A DNA stretch of 47,409 nt from assembly GCA_030149525.1 (NCBI GenBank), contig JASBRJ010000385.1, positions 1 through 47,409 on the forward strand, in the 5' to 3' direction. Position numbers and translations under genes: made by a program. Positions within the stretch are counted from its first letter, which is position 1. Each line of letters starts with the position of its first letter. The notes below the pieces were generated by a model. That model was not told the DNA's origin. It saw only the letters and a list, made by a program, of their open reading frames with translations, and did no database searches. This DNA comes from a bacterium. GTDB taxonomy: Bacteria; Vulcanimicrobiota; Xenobia; Xenobiales; JADMJV01. Below are positions 6,243 through 29,150 of this stretch, in pieces.

Positions 6243-8246
6243 ATGGATCAGTTTGTTGAGCAGCAAAAAGACGTGGGTTCCACCGACTCCACCGGCACCT
6301 TTACCCTTAACCCCGTGCGCGCTCGGGAGAAGATGCGGCAGTTTCAGCTGGCGTTGGCAGGCTCCTACATAGGCAAAGTCGTGCAGGCCGCCACCCGAAC
6401 GGGGGCCGCTCACATCGAAGTCAAAGTGACCCGCGACGCCCTAACCGTGTCTTTCACCTCCGCAAATCAGGAACTGCTCGACCTCGACAGCCTTTTGGAG
6501 GTCCTCTTATCTGTCCATTCTCACCCGGACTCGGCCATACGCCATCTTGCCGTGGGCCTCAACGCCGCCGCCAACGCCGGGACAAAGGAAGTCCGGTGGT
6601 GCACTCCGGGGGGCTCCATTCTTCTCACAGACACGGAGATTCGAAAGACCGAGGACGTAAGTAAAGACCTCCGTTTTGTGGTGCGGAAAAATCGCTCCCT
6701 TTTCACCTGGTTTCGAGGCACCGTCTATCTGGAGGAGACGGAGTTTCTCCGGGAACGATGTTTATTCGGTCCCTGCACCGTGACTCTAGACGGGCGGCAA
6801 CTCAAGCCAGAAAAACGCTGGGACAGCTTTGCTCCGAGTGACATCGACCATTTCGGCCTGGGGAAACTGACCCAAAAGTTTCATGTTTTAGAGGTTCTAG
6901 AAGAGGCCGGCTCCGCTCCGTCGGTCTGCGCCTACCCGCCTCGAGCCGCCGAATTCAGACTGCTCCAGGACCCCGCATCGGAGGAGGAACGACCTCTTTA
7001 CGTCTGGCAGGCGAAGTCGTCTCAATCCCCCGCACTCCCTTTGCTTTACTCCGGAGTAACGAGCGACGAGCGGCCCCTCTTTCTCAATCGTGCTCTCTCC
7101 TTTCGCCCCACCCTCCACGGAACAGGTTACCTGGCCTTGCTCAAGGATGGTGTTCTGTTAGATCCGATAGAGGTTGATCTCGGTCACCCCGGAGCGGTTT
7201 TGATGACCGGTGCAGGTGATCTCAAAACCGATCTTTCGGAGTTCGGAGTGGTTGAAGACGACATGTTTCTGGACTTCTTGCTCGATCAGCGACCCTGGGT
7301 CGGCCGACAATCGGAATGGGTAACCTCGGAACATCTTGAGGCCGCCTTGCAGGCTTGCGGTCTGGAACCCAAAGATTACGAAAAAAGGCTCAGCCACTAC
7401 GTCTACTGGCTTCACAACCATCGACTCCCCATAGTCTCCAGCATTTCCGATCTTGTTATTCAGCACTTCCCCGACCGGGGCTTTGTCAAGCACCCAAGCG
7501 AAGAGCACTCACTGCTCCCACGACTGCGCAAAATTCATCACGACCATCTCCCCAAGGATGAACCGATTCTTGGTTTCTACGACGACACACTGATGGGGTC
7601 AGGGAAGTCCGGATTTCTTATCACACCTAAACGACTCTGCTGGAAGAACACGATGTTTCCACCCCAATACATTCTGTGGCAAAATCTCCTTTTAGACGAC
7701 CTAGATTTCCCTCCCAAAAAGGTGGCGTTTATGAGAACGGAGATCTCTATCTCGCTCAACGATAGCGTTCTCGATTGCCTTCCCATCTTTCTCCTAGACG
7801 TCGACCGACTGAATCTGCCCCCCGCCTACAAACTGAGTACCGGTCAGAGTCAAATTCTCCATCTCGCCTACCAAAGTATGGGAATTCAAGACGGCGTCTA
7901 CTTCTATCCCCACATTCCCCGGGCGAAATTGAGCGCTGCCGAAGAGTTTTACTGTGGGGCTTTGCCGGACAGCGAACGCCCCTTGTTGCTCTACGACGAC
8001 ACCTTCTTCGGAGGTGCCGATACGGGATTTCTTCTCACCGAAAAGAATCTCTACTGGAGAAACATGTTTGCCCAATCCAAGAGTTCCTCATTGGAACGAC
8101 TGAGCCGTCTTGAGGTGACCGAGACCTCCGGCGGCATCAAAGTGGGAGAGGACGAGATCTCCGTTTACCTCTCGGCTTTGCGCCCTCTGGTCAAGATTTT
8201 TCTGCAAGAACTTCTGAAGAGCCGCGTCTCTCAAGAGCTTTCTTGA
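6243..8246 (+). CDS. degenerate GHKL-like protein with two PH-like repeats
   Basis: The 667-residue product has three parts. Residues 18-185 match the N-terminus of the 1383-residue protein at 24999 (GTFTL.. versus GNFTI.., and RCLFGPCTVTL 172-182 versus RVLFCPCQVTL). They also align to the N-box of the HSP90-like protein at 23485, but the catalytic Glu is Lys45 and the Mg-binding Asn is Ala49, so ATP hydrolysis is unlikely. The middle (190-430) is a unit of unknown fold. The C-terminus holds two related copies of a domain, starting near 438 (EPILGFYDDTLMGSGKSGFLIT) and 575 (ERPLLLYDDTFFGGADTGFLLT), each followed by 'LyWrN'. This resembles a bacterial PH-like domain. It overlaps the convergent gene by 56 nt. 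Confidence 0.75.
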   Translation: MDQFVEQQKDVGSTDSTGTFTLNPVRAREKMRQFQLALAGSYIGKVVQAATRTGAAHIEVKVTRDALTVSFTSANQELLDLDSLLEVLLSVHSHPDSAIRHLAVGLNAAANAGTKEVRWCTPGGSILLTDTEIRKTEDVSKDLRFVVRKNRSLFTWFRGTVYLEETEFLRERCLFGPCTVTLDGRQLKPEKRWDSFAPSDIDHFGLGKLTQKFHVLEVLEEAGSAPSVCAYPPRAAEFRLLQDPASEEERPLYVWQAKSSQSPALPLLYSGVTSDERPLFLNRALSFRPTLHGTGYLALLKDGVLLDPIEVDLGHPGAVLMTGAGDLKTDLSEFGVVEDDMFLDFLLDQRPWVGRQSEWVTSEHLEAALQACGLEPKDYEKRLSHYVYWLHNHRLPIVSSISDLVIQHFPDRGFVKHPSEEHSLLPRLRKIHHDHLPKDEPILGFYDDTLMGSGKSGFLITPKRLCWKNTMFPPQYILWQNLLLDDLDFPPKKVAFMRTEISISLNDSVLDCLPIFLLDVDRLNLPPAYKLSTGQSQILHLAYQSMGIQDGVYFYPHIPRAKLSAAEEFYCGALPDSERPLLLYDDTFFGGADTGFLLTEKNLYWRNMFAQSKSSSLERLSRLEVTETSGGIKVGEDEISVYLSALRPLVKIFLQELLKSRVSQELS

Positions 8247-19089: not shown

Positions 19090-19689
19090 ATGCAACGCCT
19101 CGCCCAACAGGTCGCTTTCATCACCGAAATCGACAAACTCAAGAAAATTCAACGCCAGACCATCCTTCTCGATCGCTCGCGCCGGGAGAACGACGCCGAA
19201 CATTCCTGGCACCTCGCCATGATGGTGATTCTCCTAGCCGAGCATTCCAACGAGCCCATCGACTGCTTAAAAGTGTTAAAGATGGTTCTTATCCATGACC
19301 TGGTGGAAATCGACGCCGGCGACACCTACGCCTACGATGAAGCCGGCCATCATGACAAGGCGGAACGAGAACGTGCCGCCGCCGACAGAATCTTCGCCAT
19401 TCTTCCCCCCGATCAGGCCGCCGAACTCCGCCGGCTTTGGGATGAGTTCGAGGAGCAGAAGACGGCCGACGCCCGCTTCGCCAATGCGGTAGACCGTATG
19501 CAACCCCTTCTCCACAACTGCCTTACCGAAGGGCAAACCTGGCAGCAGAACGGGGTGACACGCTCTCAAGTGATCAAGCGCTGCCGGCCCATGGAGAACG
19601 GATCGACGGTGTTATGGGACTATATGCTGGATCAGGTCAACCGCTCCGTGGCCGCCGGTCATCTGCGCGATGACTCTACTGAGCCCTGA
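19090..19689 (+). CDS. HD-domain phosphohydrolase (YfbR-like)
   Basis: The 199-residue product has the HD-superfamily metal pocket: His38 in AEHSWHLA, the HD pair His69-Asp70 in VLIHDLVEIDAGD, and a late Asp in ANAVDRMQPLLHN. This is the pattern of the HD_3 family (PF13023), of which YfbR is a 5'-deoxynucleotidase that dephosphorylates dNMPs. A nucleotide pyrophosphohydrolase-type function is therefore likely, but the substrate is unproven. ATG 19090 follows the lgt stop directly. The last 14 nt overlap the stop region of the convergent transglutaminase-like gene. Confidence 0.8.
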   Translation: MQRLAQQVAFITEIDKLKKIQRQTILLDRSRRENDAEHSWHLAMMVILLAEHSNEPIDCLKVLKMVLIHDLVEIDAGDTYAYDEAGHHDKAERERAAADRIFAILPPDQAAELRRLWDEFEEQKTADARFANAVDRMQPLLHNCLTEGQTWQQNGVTRSQVIKRCRPMENGSTVLWDYMLDQVNRSVAAGHLRDDSTEP

Positions 19690-22108
19690 TTTCGTACTTC
19701 ATCAGTGAGCGATACGCGTTTCCGTTAAGATAGGAAATCACCATATCGCCCGGCACACCATCATGTCGAATGACAAAGGTCCCGTTTTTGGCTCTAACCT
19801 CCTGGTGCCGTCCATCGCCCTGCTTCAGAAAAAGACTGTCTTTTCCCGGAACTCGCAGGGCGATCACTCCTGGATTTCCCGGGGGAGGCTCTCCCTGGGT
19901 GCCCTTACGGAGTTCGCACTGCAAGCTGAAGAAATCGCCGTAGCAAAGGGGGAAACGAGACCCGCCACGTGCTGCTTCCAACTCTAGAGTGGCGACGCTC
20001 TGAATCTTCTCCGCGCCCTGGCCTCCCGCGAAGAGTACCAGTTTGTAACGGCCGCTTGCCGGGCATCGCGCCCGCACTTCAACCTCGGAATCGCTCTTGG
20101 TATTGACCAAAGTCATTTGCTCCAAAGCCGAACCGTCGCTCTTATAGACCTGGGCGCTGATGCGAGTGGAAGGCGTAGGGCGAAAGAGTCTCACTTTCAC
20201 CTCGTCCTCAAACTGATAAAGCCCCTTATCGGGTCGCTCCAGCCGCAAGCCCAACGCGGAAAAATTAGGCTCATAATCGGGCAAGGGACCCTTCTTCCCC
20301 ACGGTGGAACGAACGTAGATCTTACCTACCGACTGACCCTGATTCTTACCCGGCTCAAAGGCGAAAAGGATCAGTTCGTATCGACCCGGCTGCGGGAATC
20401 TTGCTTTCACCGTGTTCCGGGAGCCCGACTGCATGACATTGGCGTAGCCAGGCAGTTCTTCATCGTTGAATTGGACCTGGGCCGAAACTCTAGCGCCTTT
20501 CAGACTGTCCACCACCAATTCCATCTCGCCGGGAGCCTCGTAGATACCCGTCCGCTCATCGGCAAGCTTAAGCCCCCTCTTAAAGAAAAGCGGGCTGAGC
20601 TCCGGCAGCATCTCAAATTCTGATCGAGTCAGCTCCTCAGAAGTGAGCAGCCACTTCGAATCGTTGGGGAAATGAGAAAAGCGAAATTGCTCGGCGGGAG
20701 GAAAAAACCAGTCGTCGCTCGGCTTTGGCGTGAAGCTGCGCGTCTTGTCGCTCACACTTCCGGCTCCCCAGGTGGAGTCTAGCAATTGCCAGCGGCCGTC
20801 GACCTTCACCGCATTCCAGGCGTGCAGACGGCGGTCTTCGGGAGTGCCCGGAGAGCCTTTGATAAGACCCTCCACCACTTCCGATTCCAGCCCCACAGAC
20901 TTGGCCATTTCGTTGAACAGGTTGGAGTATCCGGCACAAACGGCGTTGCCTCTTCTAAAGACGGCCAAAGCTTCCTGATCCGGATACTGAGTATTCTCCA
21001 GATTGTAGTAGGAATCGGTATCGTAGCGAATCGTCTCGGCAAGGTAACGGTAAAGAGCGTAAGCCTTCTCTCTCTCGGTGGGCAGATGACCGGCCAACTG
21101 AAACGCTTTCAGCTGTATCTCCTGGGCAATCCCTTCCACAGGTTGAAATACCGGAGCCGGCTGAGAGGTCGAGGGACTTGGAGAGGCTACGGCGACAGAG
21201 GGCGTAGGACGGGCGTCGAGGGCCACTCCTTCACCGGCTTTGAGAATGTGGGAGCCCACAAATACCGACGCGGAGGCTCCTTTGGAATGAGACCACAGCC
21301 GGAGTTGATAATCTCCCGCCGAGGGAAAATAAACCTTCACATCGGCCCCACCCTGAGATTGCTGAATCTGAACGGCGCCTTCGATGTCGGAGCCGTCCAC
21401 CCCAACGAGGGTCCCTTCCAGAGAAACGTCCTCCGCCTTCTCCACCGAGATCTGAAAGACACCGGCTTTGGACTCGCCCAACGGATTCGGACCTGGCTTA
21501 AATCCAGCCCGAAAAAAGCTCGGCAAAAGCCGGGGCCAACGCTTCCAATCGGCCGGGGTTGCTCCGAACTCGGGTGCCGAGTGGGTGAAACGCATCTCCT
21601 GGGGAGAGACCTCGGACCAAACAGCCTTCTGTCCTTCATCGGCCTCGATACCTTGAGCCACATCAAAGTAGACCCACCCCCGGGGAAGCCTCACAGCGTT
21701 CCAATAGTGCGGCTCCCGGATGTCACCGGAAAATGTTTTCACTTGCCCGGAGACAACTTTGCTTTTCAAGCCGGCCGAAGTTGCCAGAGAATGAAAAAGC
21801 TCGGCCAGACCCTTGCTGTTCCCTCTCTGCTCTCGGAGAACTACCGAGGGGCCTTGCTGAGTGGACTCAGGGGAATACACCATCTTTGAGGTGAGATGGG
21901 AATAAATAGCCTGCGCCATCTCACTGGGAGAGGCGGCTTTTCCCGTAAGTTCGAGAGCGAGCTTTTCAATCGCTTCACTTCGAACGACCACAGCGGGCCT
22001 TTCAGCCGGTGAAAGCGAGGCCGACGGTGTAGGCGTCTGAGCCCCGGGCTCCGGCCGACATCCAGCCAGACTCAACAGTGCGAAAAGCAAGAGAAGGCGT
22101 CTCATCAT
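19676..22108 (-). CDS. lipoprotein with two transglutaminase/KY-type domains
   Basis: The 810-residue lipoprotein has lipobox LSLAGC (Cys17). The second transglutaminase core has Cys391 (GNAVCAGYS), His429 (HAWNAV) and Asp444 (LLDSTWG), a complete catalytic triad, followed by FRFSHFPNDSKWLL, the downstream signature of kyphoscoliosis-peptidase (KY) type transglutaminases. The first core (residues 40-155) matches around RGNSKGLAELF, HYWNAV (His134) and VYFDVAQG (Asp149) but lacks the cysteine, so it is inactive. About three Ig-like repeats follow the second core (from about 500). Related proteins act as peptidases or cross-linkers at the cell surface. The start forms a TGATG junction with the upstream small lipoprotein gene. 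Confidence 0.8.
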   Translation of the reverse strand: MMRRLLLLFALLSLAGCRPEPGAQTPTPSASLSPAERPAVVVRSEAIEKLALELTGKAASPSEMAQAIYSHLTSKMVYSPESTQQGPSVVLREQRGNSKGLAELFHSLATSAGLKSKVVSGQVKTFSGDIREPHYWNAVRLPRGWVYFDVAQGIEADEGQKAVWSEVSPQEMRFTHSAPEFGATPADWKRWPRLLPSFFRAGFKPGPNPLGESKAGVFQISVEKAEDVSLEGTLVGVDGSDIEGAVQIQQSQGGADVKVYFPSAGDYQLRLWSHSKGASASVFVGSHILKAGEGVALDARPTPSVAVASPSPSTSQPAPVFQPVEGIAQEIQLKAFQLAGHLPTEREKAYALYRYLAETIRYDTDSYYNLENTQYPDQEALAVFRRGNAVCAGYSNLFNEMAKSVGLESEVVEGLIKGSPGTPEDRRLHAWNAVKVDGRWQLLDSTWGAGSVSDKTRSFTPKPSDDWFFPPAEQFRFSHFPNDSKWLLTSEELTRSEFEMLPELSPLFFKRGLKLADERTGIYEAPGEMELVVDSLKGARVSAQVQFNDEELPGYANVMQSGSRNTVKARFPQPGRYELILFAFEPGKNQGQSVGKIYVRSTVGKKGPLPDYEPNFSALGLRLERPDKGLYQFEDEVKVRLFRPTPSTRISAQVYKSDGSALEQMTLVNTKSDSEVEVRARCPASGRYKLVLFAGGQGAEKIQSVATLELEAARGGSRFPLCYGDFFSLQCELRKGTQGEPPPGNPGVIALRVPGKDSLFLKQGDGRHQEVRAKNGTFVIRHDGVPGDMVISYLNGNAYRSLMKYEIRAQ

Positions 22109-23484: not shown

Positions 23485-25002
23485 TTGAACGATTCAAACA
23501 ACGCACTCGAACAGCTGGTAAGACAGTTCTCTCAACCGCTTTCTTTCTTCAGGGAGCTTATTCAGAATAGCCTCGACGCCGGGTCGACCCAGATCGAGGT
23601 GACCGTTGATAAAGACCCGCAAACTCACCAGATCTTTTTGCGCGTCCATGACAACGGCCAGGGAATGAATGAGGACGTCATCGACAATCGACTCACTCGC
23701 CTCTTCAGCAGTACAAAGGAAGATGACTTTACCAAAATCGGAAAATTCGGTGTTGGATTCGTTTCCATATTTGCTGTCCATCCTGAACTTGTCGTCTTGG
23801 ACACAGGTTGCGAGGGAGAGAATTGGCGAGTGATTTTCAAGGCGAACAGAAGCTTTGAGAAACGGCGACTCCGGCAGCCGATTGAAGGAACGTCGGTGAC
23901 TCTTTACCTCCCCCACGATCACGATAAGGACCTCAACTACTACCTGGAAGGCGGGCTCAACACCGTAAGGTTTTGGTGCAAATTCGCAGAGACCGAGATT
24001 CTCTTTAACGGAGAGCGCATCAATCAGGAATTCGGTTTCCAGGAGACCACCTATCAATATCGTTACGCCACCGCAGGAACGGAAGCCGTTCTCCTCCCCG
24101 ACCCGTCTCCGGAGGGCTTTCAAGGCTACTACAACCGTGGCCTCACCTTGCTGGAGGGACCGGGCTCCCCCATTCCTCATCTACGCTTTCGTATGCGCAG
24201 TCGCTATCTGGAGCACACCCTCAGTAGAGACAATATTCTTCAAGATGAAAACTACCGAAAAGCTATGGAGCATCTTCACCGGGCCGCATTCGAAGAGATG
24301 CCTCTCCATCTGTTCGAGCAAATTCAACGAGCGCCCAGCCCCCAACTGTGGAGAATGGGTGCGAACTGCCTGAAACTTGCCGGTGTCAAAGACCGGGTCG
24401 GCAGGGTGGAATGCCTGCCTACAAGCCGCGGCCTCCTCTCATTGAACCAACTCACCTCCACGATTCACTACCGGGAGAAGGAGGACGAGCTATGGGAAGC
24501 TGTGGGAGAGCTTGACGAAACCATTCTGGTGAAGGGCTCAACCGCATCCGGCCTCGTGTACTTTCTCGAAGCAGCAGGCTGCCAATTACGCCCTTTGGAA
24601 GAGTCCTACATACTCTACTCCAAAGTCACTCCCGATGAAGACGACGAACGCGTGCTCCGCCTGTTAGCCGAGCGAGCCTCCCATCTGCCCTCACCCTTCC
24701 TGGTGGACATAAAAATGAGTCCGCCGGGCTGGCTGGGCTCAAGATTGGGCCTGTATCTAAATCCCTCAAGCAAAGCCAGGAGTCGCTCCCGGCTCGACCG
24801 GCAAAAAGGTGACTTCCCCGCCATCGTGGCGAATTCTTTGCTCTTCAAAAAAGTACGGGAACTGGCTAAAGTGGACAGGAAACTCGCCCTTTCAGTGCTG
24901 GTCCGAAAACTTCACCTCGATCTCGGCCTGGGTAAGAAAAAGGAGAAGCAAATCCTCACCGACTCTCTTCTGCGTCTCAAATCTCAGGAGGCCAAAGTAT
25001 GA
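23485..25002 (+). CDS. HSP90-like GHKL ATPase
   Basis: A 505-residue protein beginning at TTG 23485. Residues 1-150 form a complete GHKL/HSP90-type ATP-binding domain: N-box RELIQNSLDAG with Glu24 and Asn28, G1 box HDNGQGM with Asp56, G2 box GKFGVGF (86-92), and the G3-like GTSVTLYLP (135-143). The remaining 350 residues are unlike the HSP90 middle and C-terminal domains. They include a CLPTSRGLLSLNQL unit of the type repeated in the partner protein. It overlaps the next gene by 4 nt (ATGA), so the two products are made together and probably interact. It is much shorter than HtpG (about 620 residues), and the client is unknown. Confidence 0.85.
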   Translation: MNDSNNALEQLVRQFSQPLSFFRELIQNSLDAGSTQIEVTVDKDPQTHQIFLRVHDNGQGMNEDVIDNRLTRLFSSTKEDDFTKIGKFGVGFVSIFAVHPELVVLDTGCEGENWRVIFKANRSFEKRRLRQPIEGTSVTLYLPHDHDKDLNYYLEGGLNTVRFWCKFAETEILFNGERINQEFGFQETTYQYRYATAGTEAVLLPDPSPEGFQGYYNRGLTLLEGPGSPIPHLRFRMRSRYLEHTLSRDNILQDENYRKAMEHLHRAAFEEMPLHLFEQIQRAPSPQLWRMGANCLKLAGVKDRVGRVECLPTSRGLLSLNQLTSTIHYREKEDELWEAVGELDETILVKGSTASGLVYFLEAAGCQLRPLEESYILYSKVTPDEDDERVLRLLAERASHLPSPFLVDIKMSPPGWLGSRLGLYLNPSSKARSRSRLDRQKGDFPAIVANSLLFKKVRELAKVDRKLALSVLVRKLHLDLGLGKKKEKQILTDSLLRLKSQEAKV

Positions 25003-28000
25003 GCCTTCTGGACCGATACAGAGAGGATAGCGACTTTGCCGCCGACGGTAACTTCACCATTGACCGTGAGAAAGCACGCCTAAAACTTTCTCGCTACCAG
25101 TTGGCTCGACTGGAAGACTTTGCCCTTTTGGTTGTGCAGGCCCTGGTAGCCGCTCAAGCCACATCGATCAGTATTGGGATTGATAAAAGAGCGGGACGCC
25201 AGGGCCCCGAGATCCAGATTCGGGGAGAGGATGTGAAGCTTGACTCGAAACGCCTGGACAAGCTCCATGAGGAGATCTTTTCCGCCAACCGCGCATCGGA
25301 GCCGTACAGGTTGCTGGCCATTGCCTGTAATGCCGCAGAACCGTTTTGCCAATCCGCCCCCCAGATAATCCCGGAACAGACTGCCGTTCTCTTCACACTG
25401 ACCCTTAAAGACCCGCTCCCCAAATTGGAAAAGGCGATCAAGACTCGAGTTCTTTTCTGCCCCTGTCAGGTGACGCTCAACAGTGTTGCACTGCCTCAAA
25501 CGGACCCGGACTCCCAGCCTTTACGCCCCATAAAATTTCCAGAGTGCTTTGTCAAGCTAGTCCGCTTCGGCGTGGAGATTGAGAGTAAGCGCTTCCCGGC
25601 GACACCAGCCTATTCAACAATTCTTACTCACCCCGATTTCGTCCTCGACGCGTCCTGCAGCCATGTTGTGGAAGACGAACTCTACTTCGAGTGCCTGGCC
25701 CGTTCCCAGGCAGAGGCGGAACGCCGCCTGGTGGAACTCGCCGCCGACCAACCCGACGAAGAAACCCTCCAGCTCATCTTCTACTGGCTCCCTCGCATTG
25801 CCCGCTCAAAAAACTTTTATGAACTAGCTAGACTGCCGCTCTTTCCTCGAGCGGACAGCACCGAGTTCAGCGACCTCCTCTCCATGCATCGCTGGAGCAA
25901 AGAGCACGGCTCTCTAGCTTGCTCGAAAACTCCTCTTGAAGTCGATATCGGGCGCCCTGTTGTGCTGCTAACAAGCGCTGAAATGGGAGAATGCCTCACT
26001 CATCTCTTTGCCCCTTACGGCGGCCTTCAGGATGCCGCTCCTCTCGTAGCCAGAAAAATCCAGGCTCTTCAGAGACAACAAGAGTGGGAGAAAAAGGCTC
26101 GCCCCACCCAGCTTCCTCCCGGCAACTATCTGTCCCAAAAACAGATCTCAGGACCGGGTTGGCAGGCAGAGGTCGGTTTCCAGGGCGCGCCCGGAGGTCC
26201 CAGGGTTGTGGATATCCTCTATCAGAACAAGCTTCTTTGCAGTGAGACCTTACCGTCTCATCTGCCACCGGGAAGTCAGGCTGTTCTCAACCTTGACCGA
26301 GCCACCGTAAACTTCGACTGGACGGGTCTTGAAGGCGAAGAGTTCGAAGGCGCTATGAAGGGCCTTGTGGACCACCTCGAATCTTTTTTTCACGATATGG
26401 AAGCCTTATCGCCCTCGCAAATCTATCCATGCCTGCGAGACTACCTTCTCGACTGCCTCAGCGGCACCAAACGCCCCATCCCTACGCCCGCTCTCAAATC
26501 CCCACTTTTCCAACTGGCAAATGAAGAAAGGTTCGTCTCGGCAGAGGAATTGAGCCGGGAAGAGTCTGTCTGTATCGCCCCAAGATATACACCCGTTTCT
26601 CCTAATTTCCCCGGGGAATTGTTTCCCTATCCGTGTTTGGTGAGTAGCCCGGAAACAGTGGCCGTCCTGAAGCGCTTTCTGCTCCCTTCTCGACTGAACG
26701 ACCGGAGCGACTGCTTAGACTTATATCGTCGGATCGATGAGCAACTTCAAAATCCCCAACTCCCTCAATTGAAAGGCCAGCCGTATCTCATCAAGTGGTC
26801 CTTAGAATCTGAAGACGTGCGGGGCGAACTGGCGGTGCTCGATCAGCCGTCTCTGGGCACATCCGTGACCTGTTATTACCACGGTGTGAAAATCTGCACG
26901 ACCACCTTCTATCTTACCCAAGCGCTCGGTGCAATTGCAGAAGTAGACTCGACTTTATGGCGTCCCAATCGCGATTGGACAGCCATTGAAGAAGACCGCG
27001 GGATGCTCAAGACTCGAAAAATCTTGCGCCAACAATTCCGTGAAATGGAGAAGAAAGCGCTCTCCGACCGCGCACTCGAACCGGAACGCAAGATCGTTAT
27101 CTTACTGGCTTATCCAGAACTTCACCCCTCCGCCTGGGACATCCCCTTATACTTGAGCCGAGATCGTAAGAAACGCTTCTCTCTCAGAGAGTTGGATGAT
27201 GTGTTACGGAATGAGGGCCTGATCCTGATGGACAACAACAGCGGCCCGGACTTCGGAAAACCCGTGCTCGCCACTCCCGGAACAGACGGCATGTCTCTCT
27301 TACGCCTCGTTTTCAAGGACCGACTGCGAATAGAAAATGCTCAACGCTTCCTGGAGATCGAAGCCCGCAGAAGAAGCTATCTTTCTCAAGAGGCGCAAGA
27401 GAGCCTTCGGTTGCCGGGCGAATACAAACTGGTGCGCGAAGTGGCACAACGAGAGGGCCTCCTCGGCTTCCAAAGAGTCGACGAAGGTGAGACGGGACAA
27501 GCCCTTTGTTACGTGGAGGGGCGGTTCGTTATCTCGAAGTCGGATCTTTTGCCCCCCGGCTTCACCGCCGTTCTCTCCTTCACGAAGGAGTATCTTCTCA
27601 ACGATTACTCCGATGTCATCTTGCTACCTACCGAAATGGACGAATTAGAAAAGCAATGCTTCGATATACTCGTTGAAGCCCTGGAAGATCCGGACTCTCG
27701 AGAATCGACCATAGAATATCTCACAACTCACAAGCCGTGGCCTACCCTGCCCATCGAAAGGCTCAAAGAGGTCGCGTTTCTTCAAGGTCACGGCGGAAAG
27801 CTGTATTCTCCGAGAACGGTGATGGACAGGAGTCCGAGTGTCATCTACTACCTTTCTCCGGACTTTGACGAAGAAGTGGTGTGGGACACTCTCCCTCTTT
27901 TGAGACACGAGGAAGAAGAACTCAAATCCCTCTTCAAGCTTCTTCAGCAAACGGCCCACTTTCTCAACGTCGAACGCCGGATTCGATTAAGAAACCGAGA

Positions 28001-29150
28001 CAGAGCCTATCTTCGCGAAATCGAACAGACACCACTACCCAACCCGGCACAGACACAGGAGTTTAGCCATCCTAGGCTGAGAGCGAGACTTATGCCGGCC
28101 AAAGAATCCGTGATCGTCGGCCGCGATCTTGAGGGCCAAGTCGTGGGCCTTTACCCTTGGTACGGGCTGCCCATTTGGGGTGAAGTCTGGGGACTTTACC
28201 CGGGCGGCGGGGGCGAACATAGCCTTCCCTTCGCCGAACTAGACCAGAACGCAGAGGAGCTACTAGAAGACTGGGTCCACGAGGTCTACCTCACCTGGTG
28301 CCGAGAACTTGTGGGCAAGTCTCTCATTCGCGAAGAGCGAATGAAAGCACTCGATATTCTCAGGAGCACGGCCCGCCTGATCGGCTCTTCCACAACCTGC
28401 AAGCTGGCTCGAATCGCTCAGATGCTTTGGACTCTTCCACTCTTTTTGAGAGCCGACTCCACCTTCATTTCCGGAGCGGCCCTCGCCACCGAATTCGTGG
28501 ACAATGAGCGTCCCGTTTTGCTCGCTCCCGACGGTCGCGGTAAGCCTCCACACACGGTCGTGGCCAGTGACGTGTCCGAGGAGTACAAGCTCCTAAAAGA
28601 CGTCTTTGGCTTGGGTTCGCTGCAATGGTACGCCATAGAAAAACCGGCTGAGGCTGTGGAGTCTGCCGATATGGCGACGGTCCAGGAGGAAACCAACGAC
28701 CGGGTCGCTCGAATGAGTAGCTGGAGCTTCAATCCTTGGCGAACGATGAAGAATCGTCTGTTCGGTCCTCTGGAGCTTGACGAGAGCAAAGAAGATCCGG
28801 AAAAAACTCTTCTTCGTGAACTCCACTCCGATCTTACGAACCTTCTTCAGGCTAGCCATTTCGAAAGCGCCGCCCCTTACTTTTCCACCCTGCTGTTTGG
28901 TTCTTGGCCCCTGGGTCCCGCCTACTACCGCTCCCTTTCCAGCGGGCGCTACAAGCTGAATCGATTGCACCCCGGAGTGCGCTGGCTGCTCTCCCACAGC
29001 GGAGATCCAAAGCTTCTCCATCGAGGTCGAATGCTGCTTCTTCTTCATTGGGTAGGAGACGTCAACATCGTCTCCCAACCCTTCTTGGACGACTACGAAG
29101 ACGAGTTTCTGGTGAATCTTGTCACACGGCTGGAACAAACCCTGAACTGA
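24999..29150 (+). CDS. giant repeat protein with degenerate GHKL domain, partner of HSP90-like ATPase
   Basis: The 1383-residue product has at residues 17-165 a domain homologous to the N-terminus of the protein at 6243 (GNFTIDREKARLKLSRYQ; RVLFCPCQVTL at 150-160). Its pseudo N-box (40-60) lines up with the ATPase next door, but Glu is Leu44 and Asn is Ala48, so it should not hydrolyse ATP. The rest appears built of about five divergent units, each with a 'LPPG..AVL' or similar strand, a helical stretch and a 'LPLF.(R)AD' segment (LPLFPRADSTEFSDL, LPLFLRADSTFISGA). This resembles sacsin-type chaperone repeats. It has no signal peptide and no transmembrane segment. It is coupled to the upstream ATPase and followed by the dehydrogenase gene after 15 nt. 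Confidence 0.8.
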   Translation: MSLLDRYREDSDFAADGNFTIDREKARLKLSRYQLARLEDFALLVVQALVAAQATSISIGIDKRAGRQGPEIQIRGEDVKLDSKRLDKLHEEIFSANRASEPYRLLAIACNAAEPFCQSAPQIIPEQTAVLFTLTLKDPLPKLEKAIKTRVLFCPCQVTLNSVALPQTDPDSQPLRPIKFPECFVKLVRFGVEIESKRFPATPAYSTILTHPDFVLDASCSHVVEDELYFECLARSQAEAERRLVELAADQPDEETLQLIFYWLPRIARSKNFYELARLPLFPRADSTEFSDLLSMHRWSKEHGSLACSKTPLEVDIGRPVVLLTSAEMGECLTHLFAPYGGLQDAAPLVARKIQALQRQQEWEKKARPTQLPPGNYLSQKQISGPGWQAEVGFQGAPGGPRVVDILYQNKLLCSETLPSHLPPGSQAVLNLDRATVNFDWTGLEGEEFEGAMKGLVDHLESFFHDMEALSPSQIYPCLRDYLLDCLSGTKRPIPTPALKSPLFQLANEERFVSAEELSREESVCIAPRYTPVSPNFPGELFPYPCLVSSPETVAVLKRFLLPSRLNDRSDCLDLYRRIDEQLQNPQLPQLKGQPYLIKWSLESEDVRGELAVLDQPSLGTSVTCYYHGVKICTTTFYLTQALGAIAEVDSTLWRPNRDWTAIEEDRGMLKTRKILRQQFREMEKKALSDRALEPERKIVILLAYPELHPSAWDIPLYLSRDRKKRFSLRELDDVLRNEGLILMDNNSGPDFGKPVLATPGTDGMSLLRLVFKDRLRIENAQRFLEIEARRRSYLSQEAQESLRLPGEYKLVREVAQREGLLGFQRVDEGETGQALCYVEGRFVISKSDLLPPGFTAVLSFTKEYLLNDYSDVILLPTEMDELEKQCFDILVEALEDPDSRESTIEYLTTHKPWPTLPIERLKEVAFLQGHGGKLYSPRTVMDRSPSVIYYLSPDFDEEVVWDTLPLLRHEEEELKSLFKLLQQTAHFLNVERRIRLRNRDRAYLREIEQTPLPNPAQTQEFSHPRLRARLMPAKESVIVGRDLEGQVVGLYPWYGLPIWGEVWGLYPGGGGEHSLPFAELDQNAEELLEDWVHEVYLTWCRELVGKSLIREERMKALDILRSTARLIGSSTTCKLARIAQMLWTLPLFLRADSTFISGAALATEFVDNERPVLLAPDGRGKPPHTVVASDVSEEYKLLKDVFGLGSLQWYAIEKPAEAVESADMATVQEETNDRVARMSSWSFNPWRTMKNRLFGPLELDESKEDPEKTLLRELHSDLTNLLQASHFESAAPYFSTLLFGSWPLGPAYYRSLSSGRYKLNRLHPGVRWLLSHSGDPKLLHRGRMLLLLHWVGDVNIVSQPFLDDYEDEFLVNLVTRLEQTLN

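Follow-up and report, generated by a model that had tools for sequence, protein, structure and literature searches.

The DNA analyzed here, referred to as the window, is a stretch of 47,409 nucleotides from a bacterial genome of 8.27 Mb (GTDB lineage Vulcanimicrobiota; Xenobia; Xenobiales; JADMJV01; assembly GCA_030149525.1, contig JASBRJ010000385.1, C121 in our numbering). It carries two adjacent open reading frames on the forward strand. ORF1 (positions 23485-25002) starts with TTG and encodes a protein of 505 amino acids, while ORF2 (24999-29150) starts with ATG and encodes a protein of 1383 amino acids. The ORF1 stop and the ORF2 start share the sequence ATGA (24999-25002), which is the 4-nucleotide overlap reported in a preliminary description made from the sequence alone. 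Judged by homology and structural models, ORF1 is very probably a compact Hsp90-type ATPase with an N-terminal (N), a middle (M) and a C-terminal (C) domain, and ORF2 a pseudo-Hsp90 with a degenerate N domain, five M domains and a C domain.

The N domain of ORF1 (23485-23961, approximately residues 1-159) has an intact GHKL fold, and its lid is short. The domain scored above the cut-offs of Pfam HATPase_c_3 (3e-14), SACS (7.6e-11) and HATPase_c and of the NCBIfam sacsin N-terminal domain; the bit scores were 42.7 against a cut-off of 32.8 for SACS and 55.1 against 50 for NF047352. Residues E24, N28, D31, D56, G58, G60, G86, G89, G91 and T136 were invariant in all 57 relatives. These include the Glu24, Asn28 and Asp56 that the preliminary description had pointed out, together with GKFGVGF, as intact GHKL boxes. 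The M domain (24040-24582, residues 186-366) is short, with about 180 residues, and carries a catalytic-type arginine, Arg248, in the motif 'HTLSRDN', which was also kept in 57 of 57 relatives. The C domain (24610-24999, residues 376-505) was found to be related to the HtpG C-terminal domain (hhalign probability 89, score 40).

In a profile-profile alignment with the HtpG of its own lineage, ORF1 matched over a span of 488 columns that runs from the N-box across M and reaches the C-terminal 'LNxxHP' (probability 99.55, E 1.9e-23). The arginine of 'TLSRDN' in ORF1 was placed one residue off that of 'LNVSRE' in HtpG. A HMMER search with a profile of the 57 ORF1 relatives matched HtpG twice, over N and over M plus C (the second stretch being HtpG 343-604). 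The AlphaFold2 model of ORF1 had a mean predicted local distance difference test score (pLDDT) of 87.5 and a predicted template modelling score of 0.82, and its best Foldseek matches in the PDB were full-length TRAP1 and Hsp90 (E 3e-22). By homology, ORF1 therefore has the GHKL boxes, the M-domain arginine and the HtpG-type C domain that mark the Hsp90 family. Since the active-site residues are invariant, ORF1 is predicted to bind and hydrolyse ATP, and it should open and close like Hsp90.

ORF1 shares domain order, GHKL boxes and M-domain arginine with HtpG, Hsp90 and TRAP1, and ORF2 also keeps the N-M-C order. ORF1 differs from HtpG in being shorter, in its compact M domain, in having an inactive five-M paralogue as partner and in its lid, where Asp56 and Gly86 are 30 residues apart compared to 43 in the host HtpG, i.e., 13 fewer. 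The NCBIfam HtpG model NF003555 gave 44.9 bits with ORF1, far below its cut-off of 371, and from its sequence ORF1 is a relative of HtpG and not HtpG proper. With a canonical HtpG also present in the host (782 bits, 642 amino acids compared to 505 for ORF1), ORF1 is an additional Hsp90.

Single-sequence searches with ORF2 in Pfam, NCBIfam, PADLOC and PHROGs gave no match, and only profiles revealed its relatives. Residues 1-345 of ORF2 were collinear with ORF1 over 315 columns (probability 98.5, E 1.9e-15). The degenerate GHKL domain occupies residues 1-145 (24999-25433), and the alignment places Leu44 on Glu24 and Ala48 on Asn28 of ORF1, just as the preliminary description had it. With a deeper profile of 55 sequences the match between ORF1 and the N domain plus first M unit of ORF2 improved to E 1.7e-26 (score 209, compared to 18 for the reversed control), and the degenerate N domain matched with a probability of 97.9 and E 3.3e-13 (95.9 compared to 21.5). 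The N-box asparagine was found in none of the 55 ORF2 relatives, while the glutamate was kept in 28 of them. The suggestion of a dead GHKL domain holds, with the refinement that loss of the glutamate is not a property of the whole family. A catalytic arginine at the M-domain position was present in one relative only. ORF2 does not have an active GHKL site and, because the asparagine is never present and the arginine occurs once in 55 sequences, the alignments indicate that the whole ORF2 family has lost the hydrolysis site; nucleotide binding may remain.

The remainder of ORF2 was analyzed with a hidden Markov model (HMM) trained on the five ORF2 units and the ORF1 M domain. The model found exactly five units in ORF2, in agreement with the roughly five divergent units noticed earlier, one in ORF1 (127 bits), and a weak match in several true HtpGs. 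Unit 0 (25527-26015, residues 177-339) scored 95 bits and also matches the HtpG M domain. It is followed by unit 1 (26124-26690, residues 376-564; 90 bits), which scored 75.5 against ORF1 compared to 16.7 for the reversed control. Units 2 (26781-27323, residues 595-775; 91 bits) and 3 (27435-27950, residues 813-984; 72 bits) scored 39 and 37, respectively, against the HtpG M domain. Unit 4 (28056-28616, residues 1020-1206; 49 bits) is the weakest and is linked via the other units. Altogether, three units matched the HtpG M domain directly with scores of 36-39. The 'LPPG..AVL' and 'LPLF..AD' segments of the preliminary description are indeed present in the repeats, but both lie within a single M unit and are not separate motifs.

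Pairwise scores were 45-118 among the ORF2 units and 34-62 between these and the ORF1 M domain, compared to maxima of 16.6 for 192 column-permuted and 19.8 for 90 reversed-profile controls. For the deep profiles, column permutation gave a score of 141 in one seed of 20, over 13-33 aligned columns. This is a numerical artefact, and reversed or unrelated profiles were used instead. An AlphaFold2 model of ORF2 residues 1-590 had a pLDDT of 89.9, and its best Foldseek matches were the N-M parts of TRAP1 and Hsp90 (E 3.6e-9). Modelled alone, as the preliminary description had recommended, ORF1 and this part of ORF2 thus find Hsp90s first. The C-terminal domain of ORF2 (28761-29147, residues 1255-1383) contains 'LNRLHP' and weakly matches that of ORF1. 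The N-M-C order of ORF2 is by homology firm for N and for the fivefold M, and weak for C. From alignments and models taken together, ORF2 is a paralogue of ORF1. Its ATPase domain no longer has the Mg-binding and catalytic residues, M has been multiplied to five copies and a C-terminal domain has been kept. ORF2 proteins with up to seven M units were found in Myxococcota. One of 20 ORF2 members (L070:2217-6167) carries tetratricopeptide repeats (TPR), seen as a TPR-like tail in the alignment, which suggests that a different interaction module can take the place of the repeat array.

To describe the distribution of the pair, 84,980 genomes were scanned. Of 205 stretches with ORF1 relatives, 80 were kept. 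The ORF2 profile was built without the fusion protein of locus L085, whose inclusion drew ORF1 into the ORF2 family. By an automatic rule an ORF2 relative directly followed ORF1 in 61 of the 80 stretches, and further cases were missed at offset starts or contig ends. Adjacent pairs were present in 65 non-redundant loci from four phyla, i.e., Eremiobacterota (including this genome), Myxococcota (Nannocystis, Plesiocystis, and Enhygromyxa), Elusimicrobiota, and Planctomycetota. The nearest relatives are labelled Candidatus Eremiobacterota or UBP9, and a few carry the depositor labels Armatimonadetes or Burkholderiales. The distance between the two genes ranged from -10 to +97 nucleotides and was -10 to -3 in 19 of the 65 pairs. 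In L085, the only case of fusion, ORF1 and ORF2 form a single protein of 1901 amino acids with six M units.

Tree distances of ORF1 and ORF2 were correlated over the 65 pairs (0.876, compared to a maximum of 0.16 in 1000 permutations). Several genomes carry more than one paralogous pair. The pair on contig C30 was the nearest neighbour of the window pair in both trees, which shows that pairs duplicate as units. dN/dS, the ratio of nonsynonymous to synonymous substitution rates, was 0.15-0.21 for ORF1 and 0.16-0.28 for ORF2, with purifying selection along the whole length, and 0.09-0.30 for the dead N domain alone. Neither ORF2 nor its dead domain is therefore decaying. The preliminary description had named a non-GHKL N-terminus of ORF2, absence of repeats and lack of conservation as observations that would speak against it. 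None of these was made, the pair being conserved across phyla, fused once and co-inherited.

Neighbour clustering and HMM mapping revealed a larger operon in other genomes, which the preliminary description had not seen. It contains, in this order and on one strand, genes for a coiled-coil protein (about 360 amino acids), an unknown protein (about 350 amino acids), an AAA+ ATPase (about 550 amino acids), ORF1 and ORF2. The five-gene form was found in Elusimicrobiota (L139, L144, L164, L170, L172, and L187), in Planctomycetota (L141), in Myxococcota (L126) and in a relative from the same class as the window (L095). In several Eremiobacterota (L074, L077, L082, and L084) the first four genes are present and ORF2 is absent. 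The relatives with the AAA+ gene were the 13 that also carry ORF1, plus one weak extra match, and most genomes with this gene carry a single copy. The AAA+ protein matched PF00004 just above the cut-off; a PDB search with it gave nothing at E <= 0.01. No close known family was found for the coiled-coil, unknown and AAA+ proteins. For the coiled-coil protein TelA was considered as a candidate, but TelA is absent from the Pfam families listed for it and was dropped. The genome of the window carries the first three operon genes on contig C250 (L217), without ORF1 or ORF2 beside them, and the window pair is therefore a stand-alone derivative.

We favour the explanation that the pair is a two-component machine of the Hsp90 family with ORF1 as the active and ORF2 as the inactive component. 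The two proteins probably form a heteromer, and the chance that the M array of ORF2 holds clients we would put slightly below even. A heteromer with a row of client-contacting M domains is the simplest reading, because the genes are adjacent, once fused and co-inherited, and because the proteins share their domain order. ORF1 would bind and hydrolyse ATP and drive opening and closing of the clamp, whereas ORF2 would be the non-hydrolysing half, pairing through its pseudo-N domain, its C-terminal domain or both. M is a main client-contacting domain of Hsp90, and the row of M domains in ORF2 could hold clients that are large or extended. Where the five-gene form is present, such a client might be handed on to the AAA+ ATPase or be remodelled by it, somewhat as RuvBL AAA+ proteins cooperate with Hsp90 in the eukaryotic R2TP complex. 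This parallel with RuvBL1/2 is functional only, in that an Hsp90-type protein is genetically tied to an AAA+ protein, and not one of demonstrated homology.

The usual picture of Hsp90 is that of a homodimer built from a single kind of N-M-C chain. We tentatively consider the possibility that the pair represents a new Hsp90 branch, an obligate heteromer of a minimal active Hsp90 and a multi-M pseudo-Hsp90, whose ancestral five-gene form, with AAA+, coiled-coil and unknown-fold proteins, would be an assembly or remodelling machine like Hsp90-R2TP. In the pair, ATP hydrolysis and client holding would be divided between two proteins, with five to seven M domains in the inactive half, and the long-debated contribution of each half would thereby become genetically testable. 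It would also be a small bacterial system for studying a sacsin-type ATPase domain, and the operon points to a chaperone pathway distinct from the HtpG/DnaK set.

Several observations weigh against the favoured explanation. The structure predictions are of single proteins. Units 1 and 4 are tied to the HtpG M domain only via other units, and the match between the C domains of ORF2 and ORF1 is weak (hhalign score 27 over 31 columns, compared to a maximum of 19.8 for controls). Part of the co-inheritance is due to species history. Some loci, e.g., L071, L074, L092, and L094, have ORF1 but not ORF2, and in L107 and L098 ORF2 has no ORF1 nearby, so the pairing is not a strict rule across lineages.

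The preliminary description saw ORF2 as a non-catalytic scaffold or client binder, which it may well be, but a regulatory, inhibitory or docking role fits nearly as well as that of a client array. Dead paralogues often act as regulators. In such a model the pseudo-N and C-terminal domains of ORF2 would poison or gate ORF1 homodimers, while the M array would dock on a membrane, a filament or an operon partner. ORF1 stands beside the other three operon genes in the four Eremiobacterota loci that lack ORF2, and may therefore work alone; the TPR repeats of the L070 protein are likewise an interaction module. A simple inhibitor, on the other hand, would not need as many as five to seven M units, and purifying selection acts over the whole of ORF2. 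We regard the regulator model as rather unlikely overall.

Still less probable, in our view, is a split sacsin, with ORF1 and ORF2 orthologous to parts of a sacsin-type protein that forms one chain in eukaryotes. The N domain of ORF1 is of the sacsin type by its Pfam and NCBIfam matches, its M domain is short, a fused form exists, and the lid is close to that of sacsin, which is about 12 residues shorter than the Hsp90 lid (PMC9880540). Like sacsin, the pair also includes a giant repeat-containing protein. Sacsin, however, has three N plus M blocks, and in all of them Glu/Asn/Asp and the catalytic arginine are intact (PMC9880540), whereas here M alone is repeated, the second N domain is dead and two genes are involved except in L085. 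The single sacsin chain also contains UBL, XPCB, J, and HEPN domains (PMC9880540; PMC3629688), and no Pfam match to ubiquitin-like, J or HEPN domains was found in ORF1, ORF2 or 20 ORF2 members. Genuine SACS-domain giants exist separately in the same lineages, as single-chain proteins of 2511 and 2097 amino acids with one SACS domain each (L209:3226-10758, reverse strand; L210:7852-14142, forward strand). They did not match the M-unit HMM and are, by this comparison, a different sacsin-like kind. The split, two-gene sacsin-like machine of the preliminary description is thus right in that a sacsin-type ATPase domain is coupled to a giant repeat protein. As both proteins follow the N-M-C order, the pair is better described as an Hsp90 plus a pseudo-Hsp90 than as a sacsin cut in two, and is best filed within the Hsp90 family. 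A search of open-access papers, which did not extend to subscription journals or preprint servers, gave no description of a bacterial pair of such composition or of the five-gene operon; the nearest protein described there is sacsin (PMC3629688; PMC9880540). The preliminary description likewise knew of no characterized system of this kind.

A role in anti-phage defence or another conflict, with the Hsp90 pair as the sensor of an invader, appears quite improbable. The PADLOC TmtA models, which are 1063-1782 positions long, match the GHKL/sacsin-like N domain of ORF1 (E 1.3e-12), and the presence of several paralogous pairs per genome would fit such a role, as would the occurrence in Myxococcota and other large-genome bacteria. 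The match is, however, limited to residues 13-103, a generic GHKL region; similarity over the full length was not found, and ORF2 had no match. No nuclease or other effector domain was detected in ORF1 or ORF2 with Pfam, NCBIfam or PADLOC. Plasmids and phages contained no close match to the pair, only distant partial ones, and a mobile-element origin was rejected as well. dN/dS is low and the AAA+ gene is mostly single-copy. No relevant paper on TmtA was found in the literature searched, and the conflict-system papers among it did not mention Hsp90 components. That the ORF2 repeats are a generic solenoid or a chance similarity, with a coincidental likeness to GHKL, is very improbable: ORF2 alone has no database match, but its unit-to-unit scores are far above permuted, reversed and unrelated controls, and the confidently modelled N-terminal part finds Hsp90s as its best PDB matches.

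The window pair itself is flanked by a phosphate-transporter-like gene upstream and a gene for an iron-type alcohol dehydrogenase downstream, and neighbour comparison revealed no third conserved partner adjoining it. Elsewhere, the ORF1 genes without ORF2 in L071, L090, L092, and L094 adjoin a small conserved gene of 126-171 amino acids. Relatives of ORF1 and ORF2 are convergent in L099 and about 5 kb apart in L106, neither being head to tail. A protein of about 560 amino acids with a partial match to the ORF2 N-terminal profile is encoded near the pair, on the opposite strand, in L075, L078, and L081 (and L101), and the L078 copy carries TPR repeats.

A further ORF2-type degenerate N domain was found within the window, in a protein of 667 amino acids (6243-8246) that scored 99 bits with the ORF2 profile and has no adjoining GHKL partner. 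Similar solo proteins occur in L071, L102, L103, L104, L105, and L106, with the L105 copy ending in a zinc ribbon. On the reverse strand, positions 19676-22108 encode a protein of 810 amino acids with two transglutaminase-like core domains and KY-type immunoglobulin-like domains.

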